Of a stretch of 38,196 bases of DNA, positions 2,064 through 12,192 are shown piece after piece. A program made the position numbers and the translations under genes. Every line of letters begins with the position of its first letter. The stretch's first letter is position 1. Source of the DNA: Opitutaceae bacterium (GTDB lineage Bacteria; Verrucomicrobiota; Verrucomicrobiia; Opitutales; Opitutaceae); assembly GCA_005799525.1 (NCBI GenBank), contig SYGN01000120.1, forward strand, positions 1 through 38,196, written 5' to 3'. Below the pieces are notes generated by a model. It was not told where the DNA came from. It saw only the letters and a program-made list of their open reading frames with translations, and did no database searches.

Positions 2064-3944
2064 CTACGGTAACTCGTAGACTTCTACGATGGCGGTGCCG
2101 GCGCTGGAGCCGATTCCGCTGACGCGCGCACTGTAGGCGCCGGGCGCAAGGGTTACGAGGAGCACGGCGTCTTTTGTCGCGGTGTCCGCGAGGGCGAAGG
2201 CGCCGACCGAGGCGGCGGCGTCCATGAGCTGCGCGTCGCCGCCCCAATTGTCGTTCTCCGTTATCTTCGAGCCCGTGTCGTTGTTGAACAGTTCCAGCTT
2301 GGGATCGGACATGACACCGCCGAGGCCGAAGATCGTGCCGAGCGAGGGGCCGATGCCGCGCACGAGGACCGTGCGAGCAGTCGAACCGCGGAGCACGAAG
2401 CCAACGGCGAGATTGGCACCAGCGTCGATTTGCGTGAGTGACGAGAGGTTGATGAGGCGCGGGCTGGTCGCGGTGCGTCCCGTGCTGTTATCGTAGATTT
2501 CGGCGATGACGAGGCCGCTGGTGTCAGCCTTGCCGGTCACCTGCACGGTGTAACCACCAGGCGTGGCATTGGAGAGTGCGGAGCTGTCGAGGCTGTTGGC
2601 GGGAAGGGCAAAGGCACCCACCGCGGCAAAGGCGGCGTTGAGCGGAGTGCCGCCGCCCCAATTGTCGTTGTTCGCGATGGGCGCGGCGACACCGGCGGCG
2701 TTGAGGGTGAGAACGGGGTCGGCGAGCACACCGCCAATGCCGAAGGCGGTATTGAGCGTGGGACCGACCGCGCGAATGAGGAGAGGGAGCGAACCGGAAA
2801 AATTCAGCGGACCGACGACGGCGCCGACGGTGAGGACTTTGGCGCCCGGGCCGGCCGTGGTGAGGATGGAGAGGTTGACGAGGCGGCCGAGGTCCGTGGT
2901 CGCGACCGGGTTCACGATGAGCGTGGCGTCGCGACTGGTGGTTGCGCCTGCGGAGTTGGTGGCGATCACCCGATACGTTCCGGCGTCGAGGGCTCCCGCG
3001 TTGAGCACGACAAGGTTGGCGGACGTAGCGTTGAGGAGATCCCCGTTATTGCGCTGCCAGCGATAGGCGGTGGCGCCCGTGGCGGTTGAATTGAAGACCA
3101 CCGTGGAGCCAATCCCCACCGTAACCGAGGCGGTGGGCAGCGTCGTAAACGCGGGTGAGCCCACCGCCGTCGAGTTGACGGTAAGAATGGCCGATTCGCT
3201 CACGGTGGTGCCGGCCGAGTTGGTGGCGGCCACGCTGTAGGCACCGGCCTGCCCAAGCTGGACATTTGTGAGGGTGAACGAAACGCCGACGGCGGCAGGG
3301 ATCACGACGCCATCTTTGCGCCATTGAAATGTCGGGGACGGCGTGCCACTCGCCGAGGCGGTGAACGTAACGTTGCTACCGACCGCGACGGTCCGACTCG
3401 CCGGTTGCAGCGAAAAAACTGCGGTGACCGGGGTGGCGGGGGCGATGACGAAGGCGACCGTGGTGGGGCCGTAGGCATCGCCGCGCGCGCCGGCATTTTG
3501 GTAGGCGGTAATCGCCGCGAGGAACGTGCCACTGGCGGTCGGCGTGCCGCTCAGGGTGCCGGCGGAGCCGTTGAAAATGCCATTGGCGGCAACGCCGGTG
3601 ATCGTGACACCGGGCGGGAGACTAGTGACGCGATAAGAGCCGGGCGACGCAGGGGAACCGCTAACGGAAAAGGCGACCACGGGGACCGCCGCACCGACGG
3701 TGCCGGAGACCGAGGTGCGGCTGACGACGAACTGCGTCGCGCCTGCGAGCGCGTGGGCGGCACCGAGCGAAGCGACGGCGGTGAACGCGGAGCGCAGCAC
3801 GTGGCCGACGGGGGACGCGTGCACGAGCGACTCAGCTGCGGAGACGAGGCGCAAGAGCGGCGTGCGCTGGAGCAGCGCAAGGAGCGCGGCGACGGGGAGA
3901 TTAATCCACAGAAGGTAGCGATGGAAACGGAGGAGGAATTTCAC
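2064..3944 (-). CDS. Secreted Ig-like protein with two RAVGPTL/NDNW modules
   Basis: I chose GTG 3944 (626 residues) because the longer frame (GTG 4061) would overlap the DUF4266 gene. The N-terminus has a hydrophobic export segment (LLWINLPVAALLALL). Then follow, approximately: a putative Ig/cadherin-like domain (residues 80-175, with SYRVTSLPPGVTI), two I-set-like Ig domains (185-265 with FQWRKDG, and 270-350 with YRWQRNNG), and two copies of a roughly 130-residue module (360-490 and 498-626). Each copy has NLS, IRAVGPTL or VRGIGPSL, NDNWGG, VGAFAL and a closing EIYD or EVYE. The same module occurs twice in the DUF1800 protein of this window. The protein is probably exported and surface-exposed or adhesive; its ligand is unknown. 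It follows DUF4266 by 61 bases and may be co-transcribed. No Shine-Dalgarno sequence is visible. Confidence 0.8.
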   Translation of the reverse strand: MKFLLRFHRYLLWINLPVAALLALLQRTPLLRLVSAAESLVHASPVGHVLRSAFTAVASLGAAHALAGATQFVVSRTSVSGTVGAAVPVVAFSVSGSPASPGSYRVTSLPPGVTITGVAANGIFNGSAGTLSGTPTASGTFLAAITAYQNAGARGDAYGPTTVAFVIAPATPVTAVFSLQPASRTVAVGSNVTFTASASGTPSPTFQWRKDGVVIPAAVGVSFTLTNVQLGQAGAYSVAATNSAGTTVSESAILTVNSTAVGSPAFTTLPTASVTVGIGSTVVFNSTATGATAYRWQRNNGDLLNATSANLVVLNAGALDAGTYRVIATNSAGATTSRDATLIVNPVATTDLGRLVNLSILTTAGPGAKVLTVGAVVGPLNFSGSLPLLIRAVGPTLNTAFGIGGVLADPVLTLNAAGVAAPIANNDNWGGGTPLNAAFAAVGAFALPANSLDSSALSNATPGGYTVQVTGKADTSGLVIAEIYDNSTGRTATSPRLINLSSLTQIDAGANLAVGFVLRGSTARTVLVRGIGPSLGTIFGLGGVMSDPKLELFNNDTGSKITENDNWGGDAQLMDAAASVGAFALADTATKDAVLLVTLAPGAYSARVSGIGSSAGTAIVEVYELP

Positions 3945-4005: not shown

Positions 4006-4272
4006 TTAATTGCAACCGCACCCGCTGCCGCCGACGCCACGGCCGCCCGTGGCCGTTTCACGGGAGAAGAAGGTGTGCTCGGCTAGGGAGCGTGCCAGCG
4101 GGTCGCGGCCGGGGTTCATCGTGTAGTCGGTGAGCGCGGCGCGCTCCCACGGCTTGACGCGGACGAGGTTCGTAGTGGTGCAACCGGAGGAGCAGGCGGC
4201 GAGGAGTGCGGCGAAAAGGAAGAGGGAGAGACGGAGAGAACGAGAGCGAGGGAGAACGGGCGAAGTGCGCAT
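4006..4272 (-). CDS. DUF4266 small lipoprotein
   Basis: 88 residues from ATG 4272. A basic N-terminus and hydrophobic stretch end in a lipobox LAAC (Cys27), so the mature protein should be lipid-anchored. The mature part has the DUF4266 pattern: VRVKPWERAALTDYTM, then an HTFFSRE segment, and a glycine-rich end GVGGSGCGCN with two cysteines. The gene begins 6 bases after the stop of the TlpA-like gene, so the two are almost certainly co-transcribed. DUF4266, DUF3570, ApbE and a thioredoxin occur together here. The biochemical role of DUF4266 is not known; the C-terminal cysteine pair and the neighbouring thioredoxin suggest a redox-active or metal-binding partner of the outer-membrane protein (inference). 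Confidence 0.88.
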   Translation of the reverse strand: MRTSPVLPRSRSLRLSLFLFAALLAACSSGCTTTNLVRVKPWERAALTDYTMNPGRDPLARSLAEHTFFSRETATGGRGVGGSGCGCN

Positions 4273-4278
4273 GGAAAT

Positions 4279-4800
4279 TTAGATTTTTTCAGCGAGGAGC
4301 GTTTCGATTTGGGAACGGAGGAGTTTTTCGGTGGCGGCGCCGTGGAAGCCGTCGTGGACGAAGCGGACTTTGCCGGTACGATCGACGAGGTAGCTGGTCG
4401 GCATCGTGGGGACGCCGACTGCTTTCACGAGCTGCTGCTCTCGGTCGTGGAGGGTGGCGAAGGGCGGCGCGAGTTTCTTGGCGAAGGCGGCGGCGGCGGC
4501 GGGTTTTTCGTCGACGCTGATGGCGAGGAGGACAAGACCGCGCGGGGCGAGATCGGTGTGGATTTTTGCGAGGGAGGGAAAGGAGGCTTTGCACGGCCCG
4601 CACCACGAGGCCCAGAAATCAATGAGCACGACTTGGCCGGCGGTCGCCGGCACGGCGGTACCGGAAAACGCGACAACTCCCGCCGGAGCGAGCGCGGGAA
4701 ACGTATCCCCTACCTTGATATCGGCGCGGGCGAGCGCGGCGAACGCGAGGGTGTACGCGCTCAACAGGACGAACAATGGCGGGCGTAAAGCCCGCCCCAC
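4279..4800 (-). CDS. TlpA-like thioredoxin, exported
   Basis: Periplasmic thiol-disulfide oxidoreductase of the TlpA/ResA/AhpC-TSA type. With the GTG start at 4800 it has 173 residues: a signal peptide (basic MGRALRPP, hydrophobic core, LARA cleavage region), then DFWASWCGPCK with the catalytic CxxC at 67-70, a DEKP segment, and PTMPTSYLVD holding the cis-proline. The frame stays open back to 5145, but the extra part is intergenic repeat DNA and overlaps apbE, so I reject it. An ATG at 5046 would overlap apbE by 17 bases; a TTG at 4776 is also possible. A 7-base-stem hairpin (4778-4796) lies in the first codons. It probably keeps thiols reduced or inserts them in the DUF4266/DUF3570 partners. 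Confidence 0.85.
   Translation of the reverse strand: MGRALRPPLFVLLSAYTLAFAALARADIKVGDTFPALAPAGVVAFSGTAVPATAGQVVLIDFWASWCGPCKASFPSLAKIHTDLAPRGLVLLAISVDEKPAAAAAFAKKLAPPFATLHDREQQLVKAVGVPTMPTSYLVDRTGKVRFVHDGFHGAATEKLLRSQIETLLAEKI
4778..4796. repeat. REP-like hairpin at the start of the thioredoxin gene
   Basis: Inverted arms GGCGGGC (4778-4784) and GCCCGCC (4790-4796) around a GTAAA loop. The plus-strand context GGCGGGCGTAAAGCCCGCC resembles short extragenic palindromes. It falls within the likely first codons of the TlpA-like gene, so it either folds over the translation start or means the real start is the TTG at 4776. Confidence 0.6.
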
Positions 4801-5029
4801 CAGCAAGGCGATCAAAGAAAATGCACGCACCGGAAATGCGATCAGCCGTATCCACGTAGTCGCAACCAGCTTCACAGATGAATGATTGAGCGCCAAAAGA
4901 CGTCGGGCTGGCGCTTGTCGCCACGCCGTGGTTTTTCGTCGCGCAGCGGCACGTCGGTAAGCGACGGCCCTACGCTCGACTGAATGGTTACCGCCGAGAG
5001 GAAAGCCATCCACGGGGCGGGTGTTGGGG
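4801..5029. other. Intergenic repeat-like stretch between apbE and the thioredoxin gene
   Basis: The stretch is open in the thioredoxin frame but codes for arginine/alanine-rich sequence without domain features. It contains GTCGGTAAGCGACGGCC at 4953-4969, which recurs with small changes at 12968-12984. I read it as non-coding DNA made of mobile palindromic repeats. Confidence 0.5.
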
Positions 5030-6022
5030 TTAGTTCGAGGCGACATAGTTAAAAAAGCCCCGGGTTTGGGCGCGGGTGTCGGACGTGAGGAGAAGACCTT
5101 CCGCGCCCGGGCAGGCTTGGATGAACTCGATGCCCTTCGGGACACCGAGCACGAAGGCGGTGGTCGAGAGGACCCCGGCTTGGAGGCAGGAGCCGGCGAG
5201 GACGGTGGCTTGCGTGCAGCCGTTGGCTACGGGCCAACCGGTGCGCGGGTCGATGATGTGGCCGTAGCGTTTTCCACCGACGATGAAGCTGCGCAGATAA
5301 TCTCCGGAGGAGGCGACGCCCTTACCGGTGACGCCGATGCTGCCGGCGGCGGTGCCGGGGCGGCGCGGATCTTCGAGACCAATGTGCCAGGCGGGACGAC
5401 CGGGAGGAGTGCCGAGGGCGCGGAGGTCGTGGCCAAAATCAACGAGCGCGCTGGTGATGCCGTGGTCGAGCGCGAGCTGCGCGACGATATCGACGGCGTA
5501 TTCTTTGCCGAAGCCACCGAAGTCCAGGGCCATGCCGGCCGCGGGAAGAAAGACGCGGCCGGGTGCGCGCTGAACTTGCTTCCAGCCGACGAGCGCACGG
5601 GCGGCGGCGATCTCGGCGAGGGAGGGGACGCGCGGTGATTCAGCTTGGTAGTTCCAGAGACGAATCAGCGGGAGCATCGTCGGATCGAGCACGCCCTGGG
5701 TCATGAAGTGCAGCGTGTCGCAAAGCTTGAGCAGCCCTTCCATCTCGGCGTCGACGACGATCCAGCCGCGACCGGCGGCGGCATTGATGCGGCTGATGAG
5801 ACTATCTGCGCGAAAACGGGAATATTTGGCTTCGAAGGCGGCGACCCAGGCAACGGCGGCGCGCTCGAACGTCACGGCCTGATCATCGCCGGTGGGGGCA
5901 GTGTAGTGGACTTCGCATTGCGTACCGAGGGCGGGAAACGTGAGCTTCCGCAAAGGCAACGCGTCGGCCGGCCCGGATGGAGCGGGCGGCGGGGTGCGGT
6001 GTTGTTGAGCGACGATGGACAC
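5030..6022 (-). CDS. apbE: FAD:protein FMN transferase ApbE
   Basis: 330 residues, GTG start. ApbE uses FAD and Mg2+ to attach FMN covalently to Ser/Thr of target proteins outside the cytoplasm. Family landmarks, in order: FPALGTQCEV (29-38), YSRFRADSLISRIN (67-80), LDPTMLPLIRLW (112-123), ALDFGGFGKEYAVD (165-178), VDFGHDLRALG (194-204), ASSGDY (237-242) and GHIIDPRTG (254-262). Two oddities: there is no recognisable signal peptide, although most ApbE proteins are exported; and the usual Mg2+-ligand Asp in the C-terminal ADALxT motif is Gly283 here (QAGVLSTTAF), with GHD in place of GGD. It may be a divergent subfamily specific to DUF3570, or partly impaired. It sits between DUF3570 and the thioredoxin gene. 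Confidence 0.9.
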   Translation of the reverse strand: MSIVAQQHRTPPPAPSGPADALPLRKLTFPALGTQCEVHYTAPTGDDQAVTFERAAVAWVAAFEAKYSRFRADSLISRINAAAGRGWIVVDAEMEGLLKLCDTLHFMTQGVLDPTMLPLIRLWNYQAESPRVPSLAEIAAARALVGWKQVQRAPGRVFLPAAGMALDFGGFGKEYAVDIVAQLALDHGITSALVDFGHDLRALGTPPGRPAWHIGLEDPRRPGTAAGSIGVTGKGVASSGDYLRSFIVGGKRYGHIIDPRTGWPVANGCTQATVLAGSCLQAGVLSTTAFVLGVPKGIEFIQACPGAEGLLLTSDTRAQTRGFFNYVASN

Positions 6023-6108: not shown

Positions 6109-7269
6109 TTACCAGGAGAATTTGACGCCGGCGGTCACGATGCGGGCCTTCGCGTAAGCGCTCGCGGGGGTGACCCCGTCGCGACCGTGCATGTCGTAGT
6201 GCTCGAGGGCGGCGTCGAGGGTGAAGGCGTCGGTGACATTCCAGATCACCTTGAATCCATAGGTGATCGTGCGGAACGCGGAGAGGCGGAAATCGGAGGA
6301 GTAGAACGGCCCGGCGACGCGTGGTGGGCCGGAGGCGGGAGCGAGCGAAGTGTTGTCGAGTTTGTAGCGGTAGAAATCGGCGGCGGTCTGGTCGTAAAAA
6401 CGCAGCCCCGGGCGGAGTATGATCTTTTCTCCCACGCGCTGGAACCAGGCCACGTCGAAGGTGTGCGCATCCGTAGCGTAGGTGTCGCGGTAGTAGCGAT
6501 AGCTGGCGTCGACGGCACCGCGAAATTCAGGAAAGCTGCGATTGAGGCCGAGGAAGAGCATACCCTTGTTGCGCTCGTGGGGACGGTTTTCGGGAAAGGT
6601 GAGCGGGAGTGAGACGCCGGGGAAGAGCTCGGTGTTTTTTTGCACGAGCTTGTATGGGTCCGCCAGAAAACCGGTCGCGCGGGCCCAGGTGACGTTGAGC
6701 GAGACGGACGTGCGCGGGTCGAGCAATTGGGTGACGCCGACGATGAGATCGTTGGTGCGTTTCTTCACGAGGGGCCGTTGGAAGAAGACCTTGATATCGT
6801 CGTCGGTGCCGGCGACGCCGGCGAGGAGTGTGGTGTTTTTTTGATTAAAGTCGGTGAGTGTATTCACCGACCAACCCGTGGAGACGTAGTCGCTCTCGCG
6901 GCTGTTGCCGACACCTAGGGCGATGTTGATTCCGGAAAATTGGCGGGAGAAGTCGGCATTCCACGCCTTGCGGCGATCCGTGAGTTTCGAAAGGGGCACT
7001 TGATCGCTACCGGCCGGGGCGGGTTGGCCGCTCGGAGTGGCGCCGGTGATGGCGTCGAGGACGCCCTCGAACTTGAGGTGCAGCGCGGTGCCGAGGGCCT
7101 GCTGAAAATAGGCCCCCTGAGTTTGGACGGCGATGCGACCGTTCGCTTCGCGGTAGTCGGAATATTTATAGGCGACGGAATTTTCGGCGCGGACGTCGCG
7201 CGGAGCGAGCCAGACAAGGAGCGTGGCGAGGGCGAGCGAGCGAAAGTTCGGAAGCGGCTGGGTGGGCAT
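6109..7269 (-). CDS. DUF3570 outer-membrane protein with predicted FMN site
   Basis: 386 residues from ATG 7269; a GTG/TTG-led extension to 7368 is unlikely because MPTQPLPNFRS begins a normal signal peptide (cleaved near VRA, 27). The remainder alternates polar and aromatic residues as in an outer-membrane beta-barrel and ends in Trp (AGVKFSW), a typical Omp C-terminal residue. Near the mature N-terminus, residues 72-78 read DAITGAT, matching the Dxx(S/T)GA(T/S) sequence in which ApbE links FMN to the last Thr (known from NqrC, RnfG and similar proteins); that residue would be Thr78 (7036-7038). The gene leads the set ahead of apbE, the thioredoxin and DUF4266. The family function is unknown; an FMN-bearing barrel would suggest electron transfer at the outer membrane (inference). 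Confidence 0.85.
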   Translation of the reverse strand: MPTQPLPNFRSLALATLLVWLAPRDVRAENSVAYKYSDYREANGRIAVQTQGAYFQQALGTALHLKFEGVLDAITGATPSGQPAPAGSDQVPLSKLTDRRKAWNADFSRQFSGINIALGVGNSRESDYVSTGWSVNTLTDFNQKNTTLLAGVAGTDDDIKVFFQRPLVKKRTNDLIVGVTQLLDPRTSVSLNVTWARATGFLADPYKLVQKNTELFPGVSLPLTFPENRPHERNKGMLFLGLNRSFPEFRGAVDASYRYYRDTYATDAHTFDVAWFQRVGEKIILRPGLRFYDQTAADFYRYKLDNTSLAPASGPPRVAGPFYSSDFRLSAFRTITYGFKVIWNVTDAFTLDAALEHYDMHGRDGVTPASAYAKARIVTAGVKFSW

Positions 7270-7444: not shown

Positions 7445-7987
7445 TTAACGAGTGAGGTTCACTTCTACCGAAGAGACCGTGAGCGCGAGGTTGAGTTGCG
7501 CAGGATTGGCGCGGTCCGAGTTCAGCGTAAATTTTTCGATGCCGATGTAGGGCGAACGCGCAGACAGGGCGACGTAGAATTTTTTGAGGGATTCCCAGTC
7601 GGCGCGGTTGATGGTGTAGGGCAACGTGTGAATCGAAATCTGGCCGCTGCTCTGGTCGGTCGGCGTGCCGCTGCTCGTATTGCGGAGGCCGGCTTCGGCG
7701 GCCAGCGTGCCGACGGCCGCGAGGAGACGGGTGCCGTCGAGGGTCTGCGCCGGGTCGAGGCGGCTCGCGGCTTTTTGAGCGGCGTTCTCCAAGACCTTGC
7801 GGTTGTCGAGCCAACGCTGCTGATCAGCAAGAGCCACCGTGGTGGTGTGCTGTTCGCGCCAAAACGCGCCCAAGCGTTTGCTGGTGTCGGAGAGCCACAT
7901 GAGGACGCCGAGGAGGGCGAAGGCGACGAGCAGAAGTTTCTCGCGCAGGAGGCGACCGAGGAAAAAGGCGCGCAGGGTGCGAATCAC
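7445..7987 (-). CDS. gspM: Type II secretion GspM-like protein
   Basis: 180 residues. A short cytoplasmic N-terminus, one membrane helix (about 17-33, EKLLLVAFALLGVLMWL), then a periplasmic coiled region and a ferredoxin-like C-terminal part with LKKFYVALSARSPYIGIEKF. This is the layout of GspM/PilO-type inner-membrane platform proteins, which pair with GspL. The GTG start overlaps the gspL stop by four bases (GTGA), implying translational coupling. It is the last gene of the pseudopilin operon; a gap of about 175 bases follows before the DUF3570 gene. Sequence identity in this family is low, so the call rests on topology and position. Confidence 0.75.
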   Translation of the reverse strand: MIRTLRAFFLGRLLREKLLLVAFALLGVLMWLSDTSKRLGAFWREQHTTTVALADQQRWLDNRKVLENAAQKAASRLDPAQTLDGTRLLAAVGTLAAEAGLRNTSSGTPTDQSSGQISIHTLPYTINRADWESLKKFYVALSARSPYIGIEKFTLNSDRANPAQLNLALTVSSVEVNLTR

Positions 7988-9168
7988 AGCAGAGCTCCCG
8001 GTTTGATGGCGTCAGATTTAAAGGTGATCACGAGGGTGAAGGTGGCGTTTTCGCCGCGGGCTTGGAGGCCGCGAGTCTCGACGCTTTCGATACCGGCGAC
8101 GGCTTTGAGGGCGGAGGTGTAGACGGAGACGGTGCTGACGCTGGTGGTCTGGGCGTCGATCGAGACCGTGTAAATGCCGCTGCCCGGAGTCGTATAAACG
8201 CGACCGAAATAAATCTCCTTGGGCAGGGTCGCTTTGTTGGTGCCAATGACCGCCATCATCATCTCCCACGGGAGCAGGCGCTTCGTGGCGAGATCGTCGA
8301 TCCGGCGGCCGAGCGCATCGGAGGTCATGATCTTTTCGACGAGTGGCCGTTGGGCGCGGAACTGGGTGTCGCGCACTTTTTGCCAGGCGCGTCCACCGAT
8401 CAGCCCGAGTTCGCCGATGGCGAAGAGGCCGAGCGCGGCGGCGCAGCCCAAGGCCACGCGCCACAGCATGATGTCGCGACGGCGCGCGGCGCGCAGGGAG
8501 GCGAGTTCGCCTTTGTCGCGAACATCGAGGGCACTGGTGACGGTCCCGGACAGGGGCGAGACCCAGTCACCGGAACGAAAGGTCACGTCGCGATCGCTGC
8601 GGGCCCGTTCGGCGGCGGGCGGCGCGGTGAGGTCGATGACGGTGTGGCTGCCGCCGGCGTCGCGGATGAGTTCAGCGCGGAGGCGAGCGCGGGCCTCCTC
8701 GAGTTGGGCTGGCTCGGGTTCAGGCGTGCCGTCCGGAGCGGCTGGCAGCGGGCGGAAGAGGACGGAGGCGGGGACGCGAGCGTCGGTCCAATGAATTGCC
8801 GTCAGGCCTTCCGGGGAGGCGAGAATGACGGTGGTGGCAGGCTTGGCTTCGGCCCCGAGGAGTGCAGCAAACGACGGCAGCACGAGTGCGGAGCCGCTCC
8901 ACGCGGCGATTTGTTCGGCGGTGAAACGGCGGCGGTAGGCCGCGAAGGTGAAAGCGGTCTCGGCGCCGGGCGTCCAAAAATAGCCGTAGAACAGTTGCGC
9001 GATGGGAAAGGGTGAGACGGCTTCGAGCCCGAGCTCGATCTGAGTTGCGGCCTCGGCGGGGCTCGCACCGACGGCGACCGGGAGGGCACGGGTGAAGAAC
9101 AGACCGTCGGGAAGGAGGGCGACTTTGGGCGGGGGCGGGCCGGCGCGAAGAGTGGCGAGAAAACTCAT
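7984..9168 (-). CDS. gspL: Type II secretion GspL-like protein
   Basis: 394 residues from ATG 9168. The cytoplasmic part (1-230) has the PilM/GspL actin-like style (KVALLPDGLFFTRALP, then GLEAVSPFPIAQLFYGYFW). One membrane helix (about 233-258) follows, then a periplasmic PilN-like ferredoxin-fold domain (YTVSIDAQTTSVSTVSVY, ALKAVAGIESVE). GspL normally connects the GspE ATPase to the inner-membrane platform. The start lies three bases after the gspK stop and the end overlaps gspM. gspE, gspF and gspD are not in this window, so the core machine must be encoded elsewhere if it exists. Confidence 0.78.
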   Translation of the reverse strand: MSFLATLRAGPPPPKVALLPDGLFFTRALPVAVGASPAEAATQIELGLEAVSPFPIAQLFYGYFWTPGAETAFTFAAYRRRFTAEQIAAWSGSALVLPSFAALLGAEAKPATTVILASPEGLTAIHWTDARVPASVLFRPLPAAPDGTPEPEPAQLEEARARLRAELIRDAGGSHTVIDLTAPPAAERARSDRDVTFRSGDWVSPLSGTVTSALDVRDKGELASLRAARRRDIMLWRVALGCAAALGLFAIGELGLIGGRAWQKVRDTQFRAQRPLVEKIMTSDALGRRIDDLATKRLLPWEMMMAVIGTNKATLPKEIYFGRVYTTPGSGIYTVSIDAQTTSVSTVSVYTSALKAVAGIESVETRGLQARGENATFTLVITFKSDAIKPGALL

Positions 9169-9171
9169 GAA

Positions 9172-10344
9172 TCAAGGTTGCGGCGGTGGTGGTGCTGGCG
9201 GAGGAATCTCATCATTTTCTCGAATTTCCAAGAGCGTATATGGGTAGTTGAGATTGCGCGAGGCGGCATTCTGCGCGGGCGCGCTCGGGTTTGCAGGCGG
9301 CGGCGGCGCGGTAGCGGCCGTGGTGGTAGCGGACGGCTTGCCAGTCGCGGACGTTGCCTGAGTTTGCACCGCTTTAGCGGCGTTACCGGCGGTCACGACG
9401 CAGGAAAGGCGAAACTGGGAGCGACCGTCATGAACGGTGAGATTGATCCGGAGAGCGCTGATCGTGGTGACAAAGGCGGCGGAATTGCCACCGGTGCCGC
9501 CGGTGATGCGATCCGCTTCATTGGGATTTTGAAAAAACGCGGGGCCCTGCGTCCGGTAACTGCCCTGGCCCGAGGTGTAGTCGGTGAGGTTGCGTTGTTG
9601 GGTCTGATCGAACTGGCCGAGGGCCCGGAGGACGTCGGGTTTGGCGGCGTTGAGGTTGGGTTTCGCGAAATCGAGCAGTGAAACGTTGTCGGCAAAGCGA
9701 CGCCAGAGTTCGTTGGGGCGACCGTCTTCTCCGTAAAAAATTTCGCGCACCTTTTCGATCGCGGCGAGCTCGTGATAGGAGCGCAGGGGGCGACCGGGAG
9801 CTTCGTAGGGAACGGCGCCGCGGTCGTAGTCGGGGGTGACTGCGGTCGTGTAGGTGTGGCCATGTTTCATCCAGCCGGCGAGGGCGTCGGCCGCGGCGTC
9901 GGCGTCGGCGACGGAGAGCTCCCACACTTGGAAGAGGCGGGAGAGAATCTGGGCGTTGGCGTGGGACAGGGAGAGTTTCGAGCTCTCGTCGTCGAAGGAG
10001 ATTTCGACCGTGCGATCTTCGGTGGGGGTATAGCCGACGAAGCCGAGCGGGTCGTTCCAGCCCTCGGCGGGACTGTGCAGGCCGTTGGTCGCGAGGCGAA
10101 AATCCTCCAGCACCGCAAGGGTCACTTCGAGGGCGGAGTAGGCCTCCATCCGTAATCGGCGGGCTTGGGCTCCCCGGTGTTCGACGAGGAGATCGTTACC
10201 GGCTTTTTCAATGAAGGCGACGAGGGCGAAGGCGGTAAACAAAATCGTAATCATTACGATCACGAGGACGCTGGCGCGCGGCTGCGCGCGGCAGAATTGC
10301 CGATGGGCGATGGGCGACGGACGAGTGGGCGCGCAGGGAGTCAT
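9172..10344 (-). CDS. gspK: Type II secretion minor pseudopilin GspK
   Basis: 390 residues. The N-terminus has a hydrophobic pilin helix (ASVLVIVMITILFTAFALVAF) without the usual Glu5, as is normal for GspK, and no obvious prepilin cleavage Gly. The large soluble domain contains the GspK-type helical insert (LQ-type helices, DADAAADALAGWM; FDQTQQRNLTDY) and FADNVSLLDFAKPNLNAAKPDVL, close to the family's 'vN.Nta..evL' segment. The C-terminus is an Ala/Thr/Pro-rich linker plus a final NLNYPYTLLEIREN strand. The start codon shares its A with the gspJ stop (TGATG). The first 14 codons contain a 7-base repeat patch (10302-10329). GspK caps the pseudopilus with GspI and GspJ. Confidence 0.85.
   Translation of the reverse strand: MTPCAPTRPSPIAHRQFCRAQPRASVLVIVMITILFTAFALVAFIEKAGNDLLVEHRGAQARRLRMEAYSALEVTLAVLEDFRLATNGLHSPAEGWNDPLGFVGYTPTEDRTVEISFDDESSKLSLSHANAQILSRLFQVWELSVADADAAADALAGWMKHGHTYTTAVTPDYDRGAVPYEAPGRPLRSYHELAAIEKVREIFYGEDGRPNELWRRFADNVSLLDFAKPNLNAAKPDVLRALGQFDQTQQRNLTDYTSGQGSYRTQGPAFFQNPNEADRITGGTGGNSAAFVTTISALRINLTVHDGRSQFRLSCVVTAGNAAKAVQTQATSATGKPSATTTAATAPPPPANPSAPAQNAASRNLNYPYTLLEIRENDEIPPPAPPPPQP
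10302..10329. repeat. Heptamer patch in the gspK leader
   Basis: On the plus strand two perfect GATGGGC units (10302-10315) are followed in phase by GACGGAC and GAGTGGG. The patch codes for the PTRPSPIAH part of the gspK leader. A unit gain or loss would shift the frame. Confidence 0.5.
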
Positions 10345-11138
10345 CAGAAGAGCGGCAAGGTGCTGGTCGGCGCAGGCAGGGTAATGACGGATTCGCGCGT
10401 GAGTTTGTTGTAGACGAACTTCAGGCGCAGGCGTTGGGGCGTCAGCGGGTTGCCACTATTGTCGAGCTTGAGCGTGGTCTCGGTGGTCCAGCGCTTGAAG
10501 TCGGCGTCGTAGTATTCGTAGGCCAGCGCGGTGACGAGTGGCGTGACGATGGTTTCGCGGGGCGGATCGGACTCGAAATTTTTCTCGAGGCGCGAGTGCC
10601 AGAGCAAAAAGAGGCCCTCGCGGTCGCGCACTTGGAGGGAGCAGACGACTTCGGGGAGAGGGCGCTCTGGCCAGACGAAGAGGCGACAGCCTGCGGGAAG
10701 TTCGAAGGTGAGGAGCTTTTCGGTGGCGCCAGACTGGGGACGGATTTCCTGCAGAGCGATGGGCGCGACGTTGGGGCGCGCCGCAGGCGGGAGGACGGCT
10801 GAGCGAAGTTCGCGATCGAGAAAACGAGTCACGGCGCGCGCGTGCTGATCGAAGAGATGCACATCGGCGCCGCGGCCCCAGAGCTCGCCCATCGAAAATA
10901 CAAAGGTATTGAGCGAGACGAGCATGAGCGCGACGAGCGCGAGCGAGAGGAGGATTTCAAGCAGTGTAAACGCGCCGCGCGATGCGCGATGGCTGGGTCG
11001 CCGGCCAAGGGCTGAGGATGAAAGCCCAAGGCCCCCAGTGCGGCGGGTTGCAGGCGGGTGGGGCGGCGCGCCCGCATGTGCGGTTGCGGGATGGAGCGCG
11101 GAGCGTGGGGCCTTGGTCATTACGCCTTGGGCCTTCAT
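10344..11138 (-). CDS. gspJ: Type II secretion minor pseudopilin GspJ
   Basis: 264 residues from ATG 11138, overlapping the gspI stop by four bases (ATGA). The prepilin motif is ASRGA|FTLLEILLSLALVALML with Glu at +5, but position -1 is Ala56 instead of the near-universal Gly. The leader is about 56 residues, against the usual 6-30, and is bracketed by two heptamer-repeat patches (11005-11032 and 11109-11136), so it seems to have been enlarged by inserted repeats. The mature domain has the GspJ-like segments VTRFLDRELRSA, ALQVRDREGLFLLWHS-type strands and ALAYEYYDADFKRW. It forms the pseudopilus tip with GspI and GspK. Confidence 0.85.
   Translation of the reverse strand: MKAQGVMTKAPRSALHPATAHAGAPPHPPATRRTGGLGLSSSALGRRPSHRASRGAFTLLEILLSLALVALMLVSLNTFVFSMGELWGRGADVHLFDQHARAVTRFLDRELRSAVLPPAARPNVAPIALQEIRPQSGATEKLLTFELPAGCRLFVWPERPLPEVVCSLQVRDREGLFLLWHSRLEKNFESDPPRETIVTPLVTALAYEYYDADFKRWTTETTLKLDNSGNPLTPQRLRLKFVYNKLTRESVITLPAPTSTLPLF
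11005..11032. repeat. Heptamer patch, distal, in the gspJ leader
   Basis: Plus-strand units CCAAGGG, CTGAGGA, TGAAAGC and CCAAGGC follow in exact 7-base phase. They encode about residues 36-44 of the gspJ leader, just before the pilin helix. Confidence 0.45.
11109..11136. repeat. Heptamer patch over the gspJ start
   Basis: Plus-strand units GGCCTTG, GTCATTA, CGCCTTG and GGCCTTC are in exact 7-base phase. They cover the first ten codons of gspJ, including the edge of its ATG and the end of the overlap with gspI. The units resemble the CCAATG-type units in the glycerate kinase gene read on the other strand (GTCATTG). Confidence 0.5.
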
Positions 11139-11614
11139 TTTTTCTTCCCCTGCATTTCCGCAATGCGCGTTTTCGCCTGCTCGCGGAGTTTGGAGCGCTC
11201 GCTGGGATCAATGGACCACGTTGGGCGCAGCAGCATGAACGTTTGCACGGTCTTTTGCGCTTCGGTTTCGCCGAGAGCACTGATCGTGCAGGTAAAGTTC
11301 ACTGAAAAAAGGTCGGCCGTGGTGGTGGCAAGAATTTCGACTTCCCATTTGGTGTGGCGGCCATCGGCAGTATCGAACTCACCCCCTTGCTCAAGTTTCT
11401 TGCGGTCCGGTTCCGTGAGCACCAAAGAGCGCGCGAACGTGAGGTCGGCACTGGATTGGGCGACGCGCTCGACGAGCATGTAGCTGTTGAGGACGTTGAC
11501 GTAGGCGGAGGCCAAAATGATTGCTGAGAGAGCGAAGATCATAATCGCCATCAGGACTTCGACCAAGGTGAAGGCGCGAGGACCGCGAGTGCGCCCGAGC
11601 GGAATTGTCGTCAC
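11135..11614 (-). CDS. gspI: Type II secretion minor pseudopilin GspI
   Basis: 159 residues from GTG 11614, which overlaps the gspH stop as GTGA. The frame is open upstream to 11995, but that part is antisense-like arginine-rich sequence inside gspH and is rejected. A short leader ends in GPRA|FTLVEVLMAIMIFALSAIILA, a prepilin helix with Glu at +5; position -1 is Ala14 rather than Gly, as in GspJ. The mature part (YVNVLNSYMLVERVAQSSADLTFARSL) and an immunoglobulin-like strand set (TKWEVEILATTTADLFSVNFTC) fit a GspI/V-type minor pseudopilin. It nucleates pseudopilus assembly with GspJ and GspK. Confidence 0.82.
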   Translation of the reverse strand: MTTIPLGRTRGPRAFTLVEVLMAIMIFALSAIILASAYVNVLNSYMLVERVAQSSADLTFARSLVLTEPDRKKLEQGGEFDTADGRHTKWEVEILATTTADLFSVNFTCTISALGETEAQKTVQTFMLLRPTWSIDPSERSKLREQAKTRIAEMQGKKK

Positions 11615-12192
11615 GGCGGCGGGGCGTTGGGATCGGCCGGAGTGAGGACGGCGGCGCAGGTCCACGGGTCGATCCCGAGCGTGGTGACGGCGCCGTTTTT
11701 CTGAATCTGGCCCCGAAACGGTGAGCAGGTGCCGTCGGAGTAAAACGTCACAAACAAGACCGTCTGCGTCTCGACCGCGACGCCCCCGAGGAGAATCATG
11801 CTCGCGCCCTTTTGCGTGGTGAGAAACGTGAAGACGAGGTCGTCGTTGGGTGGGGGGATCGGAAACTCTTGAATGGTGGCGTCGATCCCTGAAGCGTCGG
11901 AGAGAATGAATTTTTTTTCCTTGGGCTCGAAGCCGAGGCGGACGTCTTGGCCGGTCTTCAGGGCAGTCTTGCGGCACGCTTGCACCGTTTTCCAAAACAC
12001 TTCGGTGGGAGTGGCCGTGCGGTCGTTGAGCAAGGCCGCGGAGCCGCCGATGAGCACGCTCCCTAACAAGGCGATGATCGCGAGAGCGAGGAGGATCTCC
12101 AGCAGCGTGAAACCACGCGGTGCGCGGTTTGCCTGGAGCGCAGAGCGGAAGGAGGCATCACAGCGGGTGGGCCGGGACCGGGGCGGGTGCAC
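11611..12192 (-). CDS. gspH: Type II secretion minor pseudopilin GspH
   Basis: 193 residues if started at GTG 12192 (MHPPRSRPTRCDASF); the longer frame to 12495 lies inside gspG and is rejected. The prepilin motif is APRG|FTLLEILLALAIIALLG with Gly27 and Glu at +5. The soluble part (KTVQACRKTALKTGQDVRLGFEPKEKKFILSD) has the long basic helix followed by beta strands of GspH/FimT. It lies 43 bases after gspG and is coupled to gspI. It is the minor pseudopilin between the GspG shaft and the I/J/K tip. No Shine-Dalgarno sequence is clear, so the exact start is uncertain. Confidence 0.82.
   Translation of the reverse strand: MHPPRSRPTRCDASFRSALQANRAPRGFTLLEILLALAIIALLGSVLIGGSAALLNDRTATPTEVFWKTVQACRKTALKTGQDVRLGFEPKEKKFILSDASGIDATIQEFPIPPPNDDLVFTFLTTQKGASMILLGGVAVETQTVLFVTFYSDGTCSPFRGQIQKNGAVTTLGIDPWTCAAVLTPADPNAPPP

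Follow-up and report, generated by a model that had tools for sequence, protein, structure and literature searches.

Candidate ApbE substrates in a DUF3570 gene cluster of an Opitutaceae bacterium: a predicted outer-membrane barrel and a secreted Ig-repeat protein

The locus described here raises the question of how a protein predicted to reside in the outer membrane could receive a covalent flavin from a transferase that has no recognisable export signal. The window, which is the whole 38,196-nucleotide stretch of Opitutaceae DNA that was analyzed, includes five minus-strand genes in the transcription order DUF3570, ApbE, TlpA-like, DUF4266 and large Ig-repeat protein (Table 1). It comes from a draft genome of 4.7 Mb, split into 343 contigs and 83.75% complete, in which there are a single DUF3570 locus and three ApbE matches. 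We consider it fairly probable that this cluster makes a covalent cell-surface flavoprotein by way of a cytosolic ApbE, is fed by thiols and uses the fifth protein as a second substrate.

Table 1. Coordinates of the cluster genes and motifs within the window
Feature	Position	Strand	Basis
DUF3570 protein (PF12094)	6109-7269	minus	Pfam E 1.8e-65; AlphaFold pLDDT 96.3; Foldseek
DAITGAT codons, presumed FMN site (last Thr)	7036-7056	minus	read from sequence; Thr/Ser in 102/102 rows
ApbE flavin transferase, no recognisable export signal	5030-6022	minus	PF02424 E 1e-73; GTG start at 6022
TlpA-like thioredoxin protein, signal-like stretch, WCGPC	4279-5145	minus	Redoxin, AhpC-TSA; start codon uncertain
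DUF4266 small lipoprotein-like protein ending CGCN	4006-4272	minus	PF14086 E 3.7e-20
Large Ig-repeat protein, candidate second ApbE substrate	2064-3944	minus	Pfam I-set, Ig_3; GTG start at 3944 chosen
N-terminal module of the fifth protein (alignment A6, row 1)	3561-3932	minus	alignments
HALAGAT codons, ApbE-like motif, His at position 1, Ala at position 4	3735-3755	minus	alignment

The first gene product is a member of the DUF3570 family (221.9 bits against a PF12094 gathering cut-off of 25), with a signal peptide followed by a predicted 16-strand outer-membrane barrel, and reads FEGVLDAITGATPSGQPAP around the site. The initial annotation had described an ApbE-type motif, DAITGAT, at residues 72-78 of this product and an apbE gene immediately downstream. 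Counting from the ATG at 7269 gives the same residues, and apbE is indeed the next gene on the same strand; the description of the motif thus stands, but the coordinates given for it, 7030-7048, lie 6-8 bases off its codons. If the mature chain begins with ENSVAY, a cleavage point of our choosing, the motif occupies mature residues 44-50. The pattern D..[ST]GA[ST] arose in 211 of 50,000 shuffles of the mature protein. The identity of the transferase is clear from its score (248.6 bits against a PF02424 cut-off of 25.6), from its similarity to solved ApbEs (best E 2.3e-36) and from the conserved blocks DFGGFGKEYAVD, SGDYLRSF and HIIDPRTG; its GTG start aligns by eye with the ATG of relatives (L086, L089).

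Flavinylation of a relative has been published. Using co-expression, UV gels and site mutants, Meheust et al. (2021; PMC8238504) showed that the DUF3570 protein of Chlorobium luteolum is flavinylated by its ApbE, and that the modification is lost only when both of its motifs are mutated. The same study found DUF3570 in 227 of 285 DsbD clusters, along with ApbE, a thioredoxin-like protein and DUF4266, and reported 316 such clusters without DsbD. The window has all four genes of that arrangement (PMC8238504), among them a DUF4266 with its C-terminal CxC, and DUF3570, there the demonstrated ApbE substrate, is the presumed one here. It differs in that its type of DUF3570 has one motif, unlike the tested Chlorobium protein with two, and in that the thioredoxin-like protein, assigned to PF13899 in the published clusters, matches PF08534 and PF00578 here and PF13899 only below the cut-off (13.8 versus 27 bits). 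As in NqrC and RnfG (PMC8238504), the flavin would come from ApbE and be carried by a Thr/Ser of an [ST]GA[ST]-like motif. Unlike these FMN-binding domain proteins, the seven window proteins scanned with Pfam contain no FMN_bind domain at E up to 1, and a nearby FMN_bind protein was accordingly set aside as a candidate. The main text of PMC8238504 does not contain "Verrucomicrob-", "beta-barrel" or "cytosolic ApbE", and mentions the outer membrane once, with regard to siderophore receptors. Beyond the available text of that paper, the present analysis adds a predicted outer-membrane barrel with the orientation of its site, two cluster subtypes with a signal-less ApbE beside an exported DUF3570 in the first of them, and a fifth gene with a motif-bearing module.

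To describe the conservation of the site, DUF3570 loci were collected from a sample weighted toward the PVC group, in which Bacteroidota, Chlorobiota and Gammaproteobacteria are represented only by one Vibrio and one Hymenobacter record. Among 288 genomes sampled from the phylum of the window, 30 have DUF3570, as do 23 of 246 genomes from the phylum of G288, a Phycisphaerales-titled record. ApbE was found in 29 of the 31 loci fetched around the first DUF3570 set (L046 and L061 are the exceptions). A scan of the genome collection confirmed 562 stretches, of which the best 80 were added as further loci, almost all of them from records titled Verrucomicrobia, Lentisphaerae, Kiritimatiellae or other PVC; alignment A1 had no stretch conserved enough for scanning, and the narrower set A2 was used instead. 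In alignment A3, which comprises 102 rows and leaves out the incomplete L082 and L132, the last residue of the site is Thr/Ser in all 102 rows, the first is Asp/Asn in all 102, and the Gly is kept in 99. Among 104 unique DUF3570 proteins, counted without L055 and L074 (gene in three ORFs), L061 (no profile hit) and exact duplicates by C-terminal sequence, 98 carry G[AS][STA]PxG at the site, two have GMT (L126, L138), three have two sites and one is truncated. Composition over the 98 is D 83 and N 15 at position 1, S 62, A 18, T 15 and V 3 at position 4 (21 of 98 neither S nor T), and T 76 and S 22 at position 7; a plain [ST]GA[ST] pattern misses proteins with A/V at position 4 or S at position 6. 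A motif of the [ST]GA[ST] type is thus conserved among apbE-linked DUF3570 proteins.

Three forms of DUF3570 can be distinguished, the first two under subtype labels of our own. Type I, the kind found in the window, has one site and accounts for 100 of the 104 unique proteins. Type II carries DxVSSASIxRL...QSGASGD or close variants, in which 14 residues separate a pair of candidate sites; the 19 rows of alignment A4 represent L057, L058, L063 and 16 of 28 loci retrieved from the G288 phylum. Loci L211-L215 show a third form, marked by TTSAS, and other loci of the G288 phylum are variants or type I (L190, L193, L217). As side observations, two genomes hold two complete DUF3570 clusters each, about 13 kb apart in G169 (L041, L042) and about 10 kb apart in G181 (L043, L044), and in L055 and L074, presumably from the same genome, the three-ORF DUF3570 gene lies next to ApbE.

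For 96 of the 104 DUF3570 proteins, the fetched stretch also includes an ApbE. Two of the eight others end at contig ends (L132, L082) and one has scant downstream room (L088); the remaining five are L046, L081, L095, L096 and L130. A similar ApbE was found elsewhere in the genome in all four cases checked (G283, which holds L046, and the genomes of L081, L095 and L130); these ApbEs have the GKE[YFH]AVD block and no leader by eye, and stand outside the tree described below. Conservation of the site, co-occurrence of apbE and the published flavinylation of a relative (PMC8238504) together support the initial proposal that DUF3570 is the ApbE substrate, an idea that was already in print.

The fifth gene encodes a similar motif. 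In the 102 loci with a DUF4266-like ORF, a long ORF comes next in 66, none does in 23, and 13 lie too close to a contig end; in three type II loci among the 66 the ORF picked is DUF3570 itself. The fifth protein of the window is matched by 47 of the 66 ORFs, its own included. Their shared N-terminal module spans about 120 residues and opens with a hydrophobic helix; LQRTP or a similar sequence, one basic residue and another hydrophobic stretch lead up to the motif [DHNQ]xx[SATV]GA[TS], after which comes an Ig-like domain. The motif is in place in 45 of the 47 proteins (L079 and L110 are without) and departs from the textbook form: in 18 of the 45 loci it begins with His, and in 29 its fourth residue is Ala. 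No NCBIfam model covers the module in the seven proteins scanned. Alignment A6 (42 rows) omits the near copies L092, L095 and L143 as well as L079 and L110, where the motif is missing; alignment A5, with 76 of 125 neighbour ORFs, holds unrelated proteins and served only as a container for the Pfam scan.

Because the 45 proteins had been found by the motif pattern itself, a profile search is the fair test of conservation. Full-length matches numbered 24, all at E 5.4e-25 or better, and came from 15 of the 288 genomes, with at most 15 candidates scored per genome, so that absence is not absolute. Of these, 23 were examined and every one keeps GAT, including 12 that are not among the training rows; the 24th, G160:C202, was outside this set. 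Judging from their coordinates, 18 of the 24 have a DUF3570 cluster no more than about 5 kb away, and six are on other contigs. The full module occurs in 15 of 30 sampled genomes with DUF3570 versus none of 258 without, nine of which gave partial matches, mostly to the Ig half. No full module was found in the 246 genomes of the G288 phylum (at most 18 candidates scored per genome), so that it is apparently missing from the type I clusters of that phylum and of other classes. In seven further loci, out of 55, a similar motif follows hydrophobic residues just downstream of DUF4266. A match in G435:C197 was dropped, as its frame looks transporter-like by eye. The genome of the window encodes two more module proteins, at G000:C200:7295-7648 (L219, HTLAGAT) and G000:C103:15644-16006 (L220, HSLAGAT).

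In a background control with a home-made gene finder and the module labelled by profile, 466 of 963 gene-like ORFs in the loci had a hydrophobic N-terminus. The motif was near it in 92, all of which match the DUF3570 (58) or module (34) profile; among the 374 without the motif, 343 match neither profile, 28 match DUF3570 and 3 the module. The motif is therefore found in none of the 343 ORFs outside the two profiles. Furthermore, position 4 is identical in the DUF3570 and module motifs of the same locus in 24 of 45 loci (S/S 11, A/A 10, T/T 2, V/V 1), a level reached in 0 of 20,000 shuffles, in a test that counts near copies and leaves shared ancestry uncorrected. The V/V pairing on its own falls short of significance (1802 of 20,000), and at position 7 the two motifs give no such signal over the 45 loci.

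Signal peptidase I prefers small residues at positions -3 and -1, and the module motif could be read as such a cleavage site only, cut before GAT and carrying no FMN. Its composition over the 42 aligned rows suits this explanation, with A/S/T/G/C at position 2 and A/S/T/V at position 4, as does the K/R that precedes the second hydrophobic stretch in 40 of the 42. To our knowledge, however, signal peptidase needs no G-A-T after the cut, so that the retention of GAT, also in rows that did not train the profile, argues against a mere cleavage site, and so does the confinement of the full module to genomes with DUF3570 within the limit of 15 scored candidates per genome. We regard cleavage alone as a serious possibility, though one with clearly less than an even chance, and hold that the fifth-gene protein may, judging from its sequence, be a second ApbE substrate.

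The second issue is where the ApbE acts. The window ApbE has no N-terminal signal peptide or lipobox as judged by hydropathy and by eye. For comparison across loci, the highest hydropathy of a 12-residue window was taken over the stretch preceding the fold, about 50 residues long and 70 in type II, with a threshold of 2.0, a crude stand-in for a signal predictor. By this measure none of 94 type I ApbEs reaches 2.0 and four reach 1.8; the window ApbE has 1.95 in a stretch that lies partly upstream of its own start. At the same type I loci, 69 of 100 DUF3570 proteins and 75 of 81 TlpAs reach the threshold. Type II ApbEs do so in 14 of 17 cases, the exceptions being L195 (0.82), L202 (1.17, in an ORF that also matches TlpA) and L057 (1.93); L058 and L192 were left out of this count for want of an anchor, and L058 gave 2.12 in another measurement. 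A FastTree phylogeny of 130 ApbEs contains a branch (support 97) that sets apart all 96 type I rows together with a row from a Vibrio plasmid and the second ApbE of L140; the program cautioned that L190 and the Vibrio row sit on long branches. In the Vibrio record THAF191d the DUF3570 motif is single, DTVSGASPS, and the cluster also has TlpA, DUF4266, an ApbE that lacks a leader and a frame resembling DsbD by eye; the Hymenobacter record has a DUF3570 with YYSSAS and an ApbE split over two frames with a leader on the first. Single ORFs that match both TlpA and ApbE occur at L192:5373-6809 (plus), L202:3368-5056 (minus), L211:5822-7429 (plus) and L215:3386-4870 (minus), and look like thioredoxin-flavin transferase fusions in type II and III clusters.

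These leader patterns suggest that the type I ApbE stays in the cytosol. The competing explanation is ordinary periplasmic flavinylation, in which ApbE reaches the periplasm by an unseen route and modifies DUF3570 before insertion. It has in its favor that a review (PMC12052999) describes the ApbEs of secreted substrates as lipoproteins that are themselves secreted, and that type II clusters mostly have exported ApbEs or TlpA+ApbE ORFs. We nevertheless consider it unlikely, given the consistent lack of a leader in type I ApbEs next to the leaders of their neighboring TlpAs, and given that several type I ApbE ORFs start within about 20 residues of the fold. A cytosolic ApbE has a precedent in the Klebsiella enzyme without signal peptide that serves a soluble fumarate reductase (PMC12052999), although that substrate is cytosolic, whereas the window substrate has a signal peptide and a predicted place in the outer membrane. 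In PMC8238504, signal-truncated constructs were used for a DUF2271 pair and a similar strategy for DUF3570, which was found mostly in the cell pellet; modification inside the cell is therefore possible. Against the cytosolic route, it would require the modified chain to cross SecYEG, and our search of the open-licence literature found no paper on such a passage.

The placement of DUF3570 in the outer membrane, which the initial annotation had assumed, is supported by structure prediction. AlphaFold modelled the mature protein with the 102 aligned rows at a pLDDT of 96.3 and a pTM of 0.90, and by our count the model has sixteen long strands and a hairpin. Among the 50 of 1031 Foldseek matches listed, all are outer-membrane proteins by title (TonB-dependent receptors, FadL, OmpG, BcsC), the best query TM-score being 0.58. 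In beta-signal proteins, the last strand ends in the periplasm; of the 102 DUF3570 rows, 96 end in F, W, Y or L. Turns on the side that would accordingly be periplasmic have 2-4 residues and the other loops 2-37, and outward-facing hydrophobic residues adjoin the short turns in most strands, with strand 2 as a misfit (hydrophobics at the opposite end) and a few strands mixed. In strand 3 the hydrophobics are L35-F39; residues 44-50 therefore come after the belt, toward the outside, and Thr50 shares the parity of the inward-facing residues. DAITGAT thus appears to lie at the extracellular end of strand 3 and to point into the lumen, an orientation derived from strand counting and hydrophobic residues rather than from coordinates. 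Once the barrel is inserted, such an outward site would be nearly out of reach of a periplasmic enzyme. Attachment should therefore come first, and a cytosolic ApbE fits this order; FMN is probably attached before the barrel is inserted.

The type II model is less certain (pLDDT 87.7, below 50 at residues 76-79) and places both motifs in the loop between strands 3 and 4. In nine loci (L052, L053, L054, L056, L059, L060, L062, L064, L065) the outer loop contains, directly after PTGAPP or similar, a long insert enriched in proline, serine and acidic residues. That the type I motif is a structural barrel element kept for folding, with no flavin, seems very improbable: the published test concerned the two-motif Chlorobium form rather than type I, and Ala/Val is tolerated at position 4, but a relative's DUF3570 is flavinylated (PMC8238504), the last residue of the site is Thr/Ser in all 102 rows, and apbE accompanies the gene in 96 of 104 cases.

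The products of the other two genes may supply electrons. CxxC is present in 81 of 82 type I TlpA-profile frames, and DUF4266 ends in CGCN in 99 of 99 type I loci, counted with duplicates and picked by a GCGC[NYFH] ending, since our DUF4266 profile picked up overlapping frames. TlpA and DUF4266 are therefore candidate thiol carriers, as judged from their sequences. The DUF3570 and fifth-gene proteins of the window contain no cysteine, which excludes a thiol-exchange role for both. DsbD is absent from the window cluster, and the genome has one DsbD_TM homologue on a different contig.

In the mechanism that we propose, the cytosolic ApbE would take FMN from FAD and attach it to the final Thr of DAITGAT while the DUF3570 precursor is still unfolded; the substrate status has been published for a relative, while the cytosol as the place of modification is our inference. 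The flavinylated precursor would then cross the inner membrane by Sec and fold into the outer membrane as the predicted barrel, so that the FMN residue would come to lie at the extracellular end of the third strand, facing the lumen. Electrons would arrive from periplasmic thiols through TlpA and the CxC lipoprotein DUF4266, which may in turn be fed by a DsbD-type protein such as the homologue on the other contig. The large secreted product of the fifth gene is probably, though less certainly, a second ApbE substrate that would pass electrons outward. The full version of this scheme, in which one ApbE flavinylates both the barrel and a family of secreted module proteins before export, and the two form a cytochrome-free flavin wire from periplasmic thiols to the outside, is put forward tentatively, at slightly less than even chances.

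If this is true, covalent flavins can be attached before secretion, an order undescribed for exported substrates in the available text of PMC8238504 and PMC12052999, and flavins could give Verrucomicrobiota a means of electron transfer across the outer membrane. The module also provides a concrete list of candidate ApbE substrates without an FMN-binding domain, which bear on the question of orphan apbE genes raised in PMC8238504.

Directly upstream of DUF3570, at 7445-11995 on the minus strand, lie type II secretion-like genes, comprising a K protein (PF21687), two weak prepilin-type N-termini and a weak M match. They were rejected as part of the unit, being present in 12 of 111 cluster loci. 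Similar genes lie beside one of four stand-alone module genes inspected (L261).
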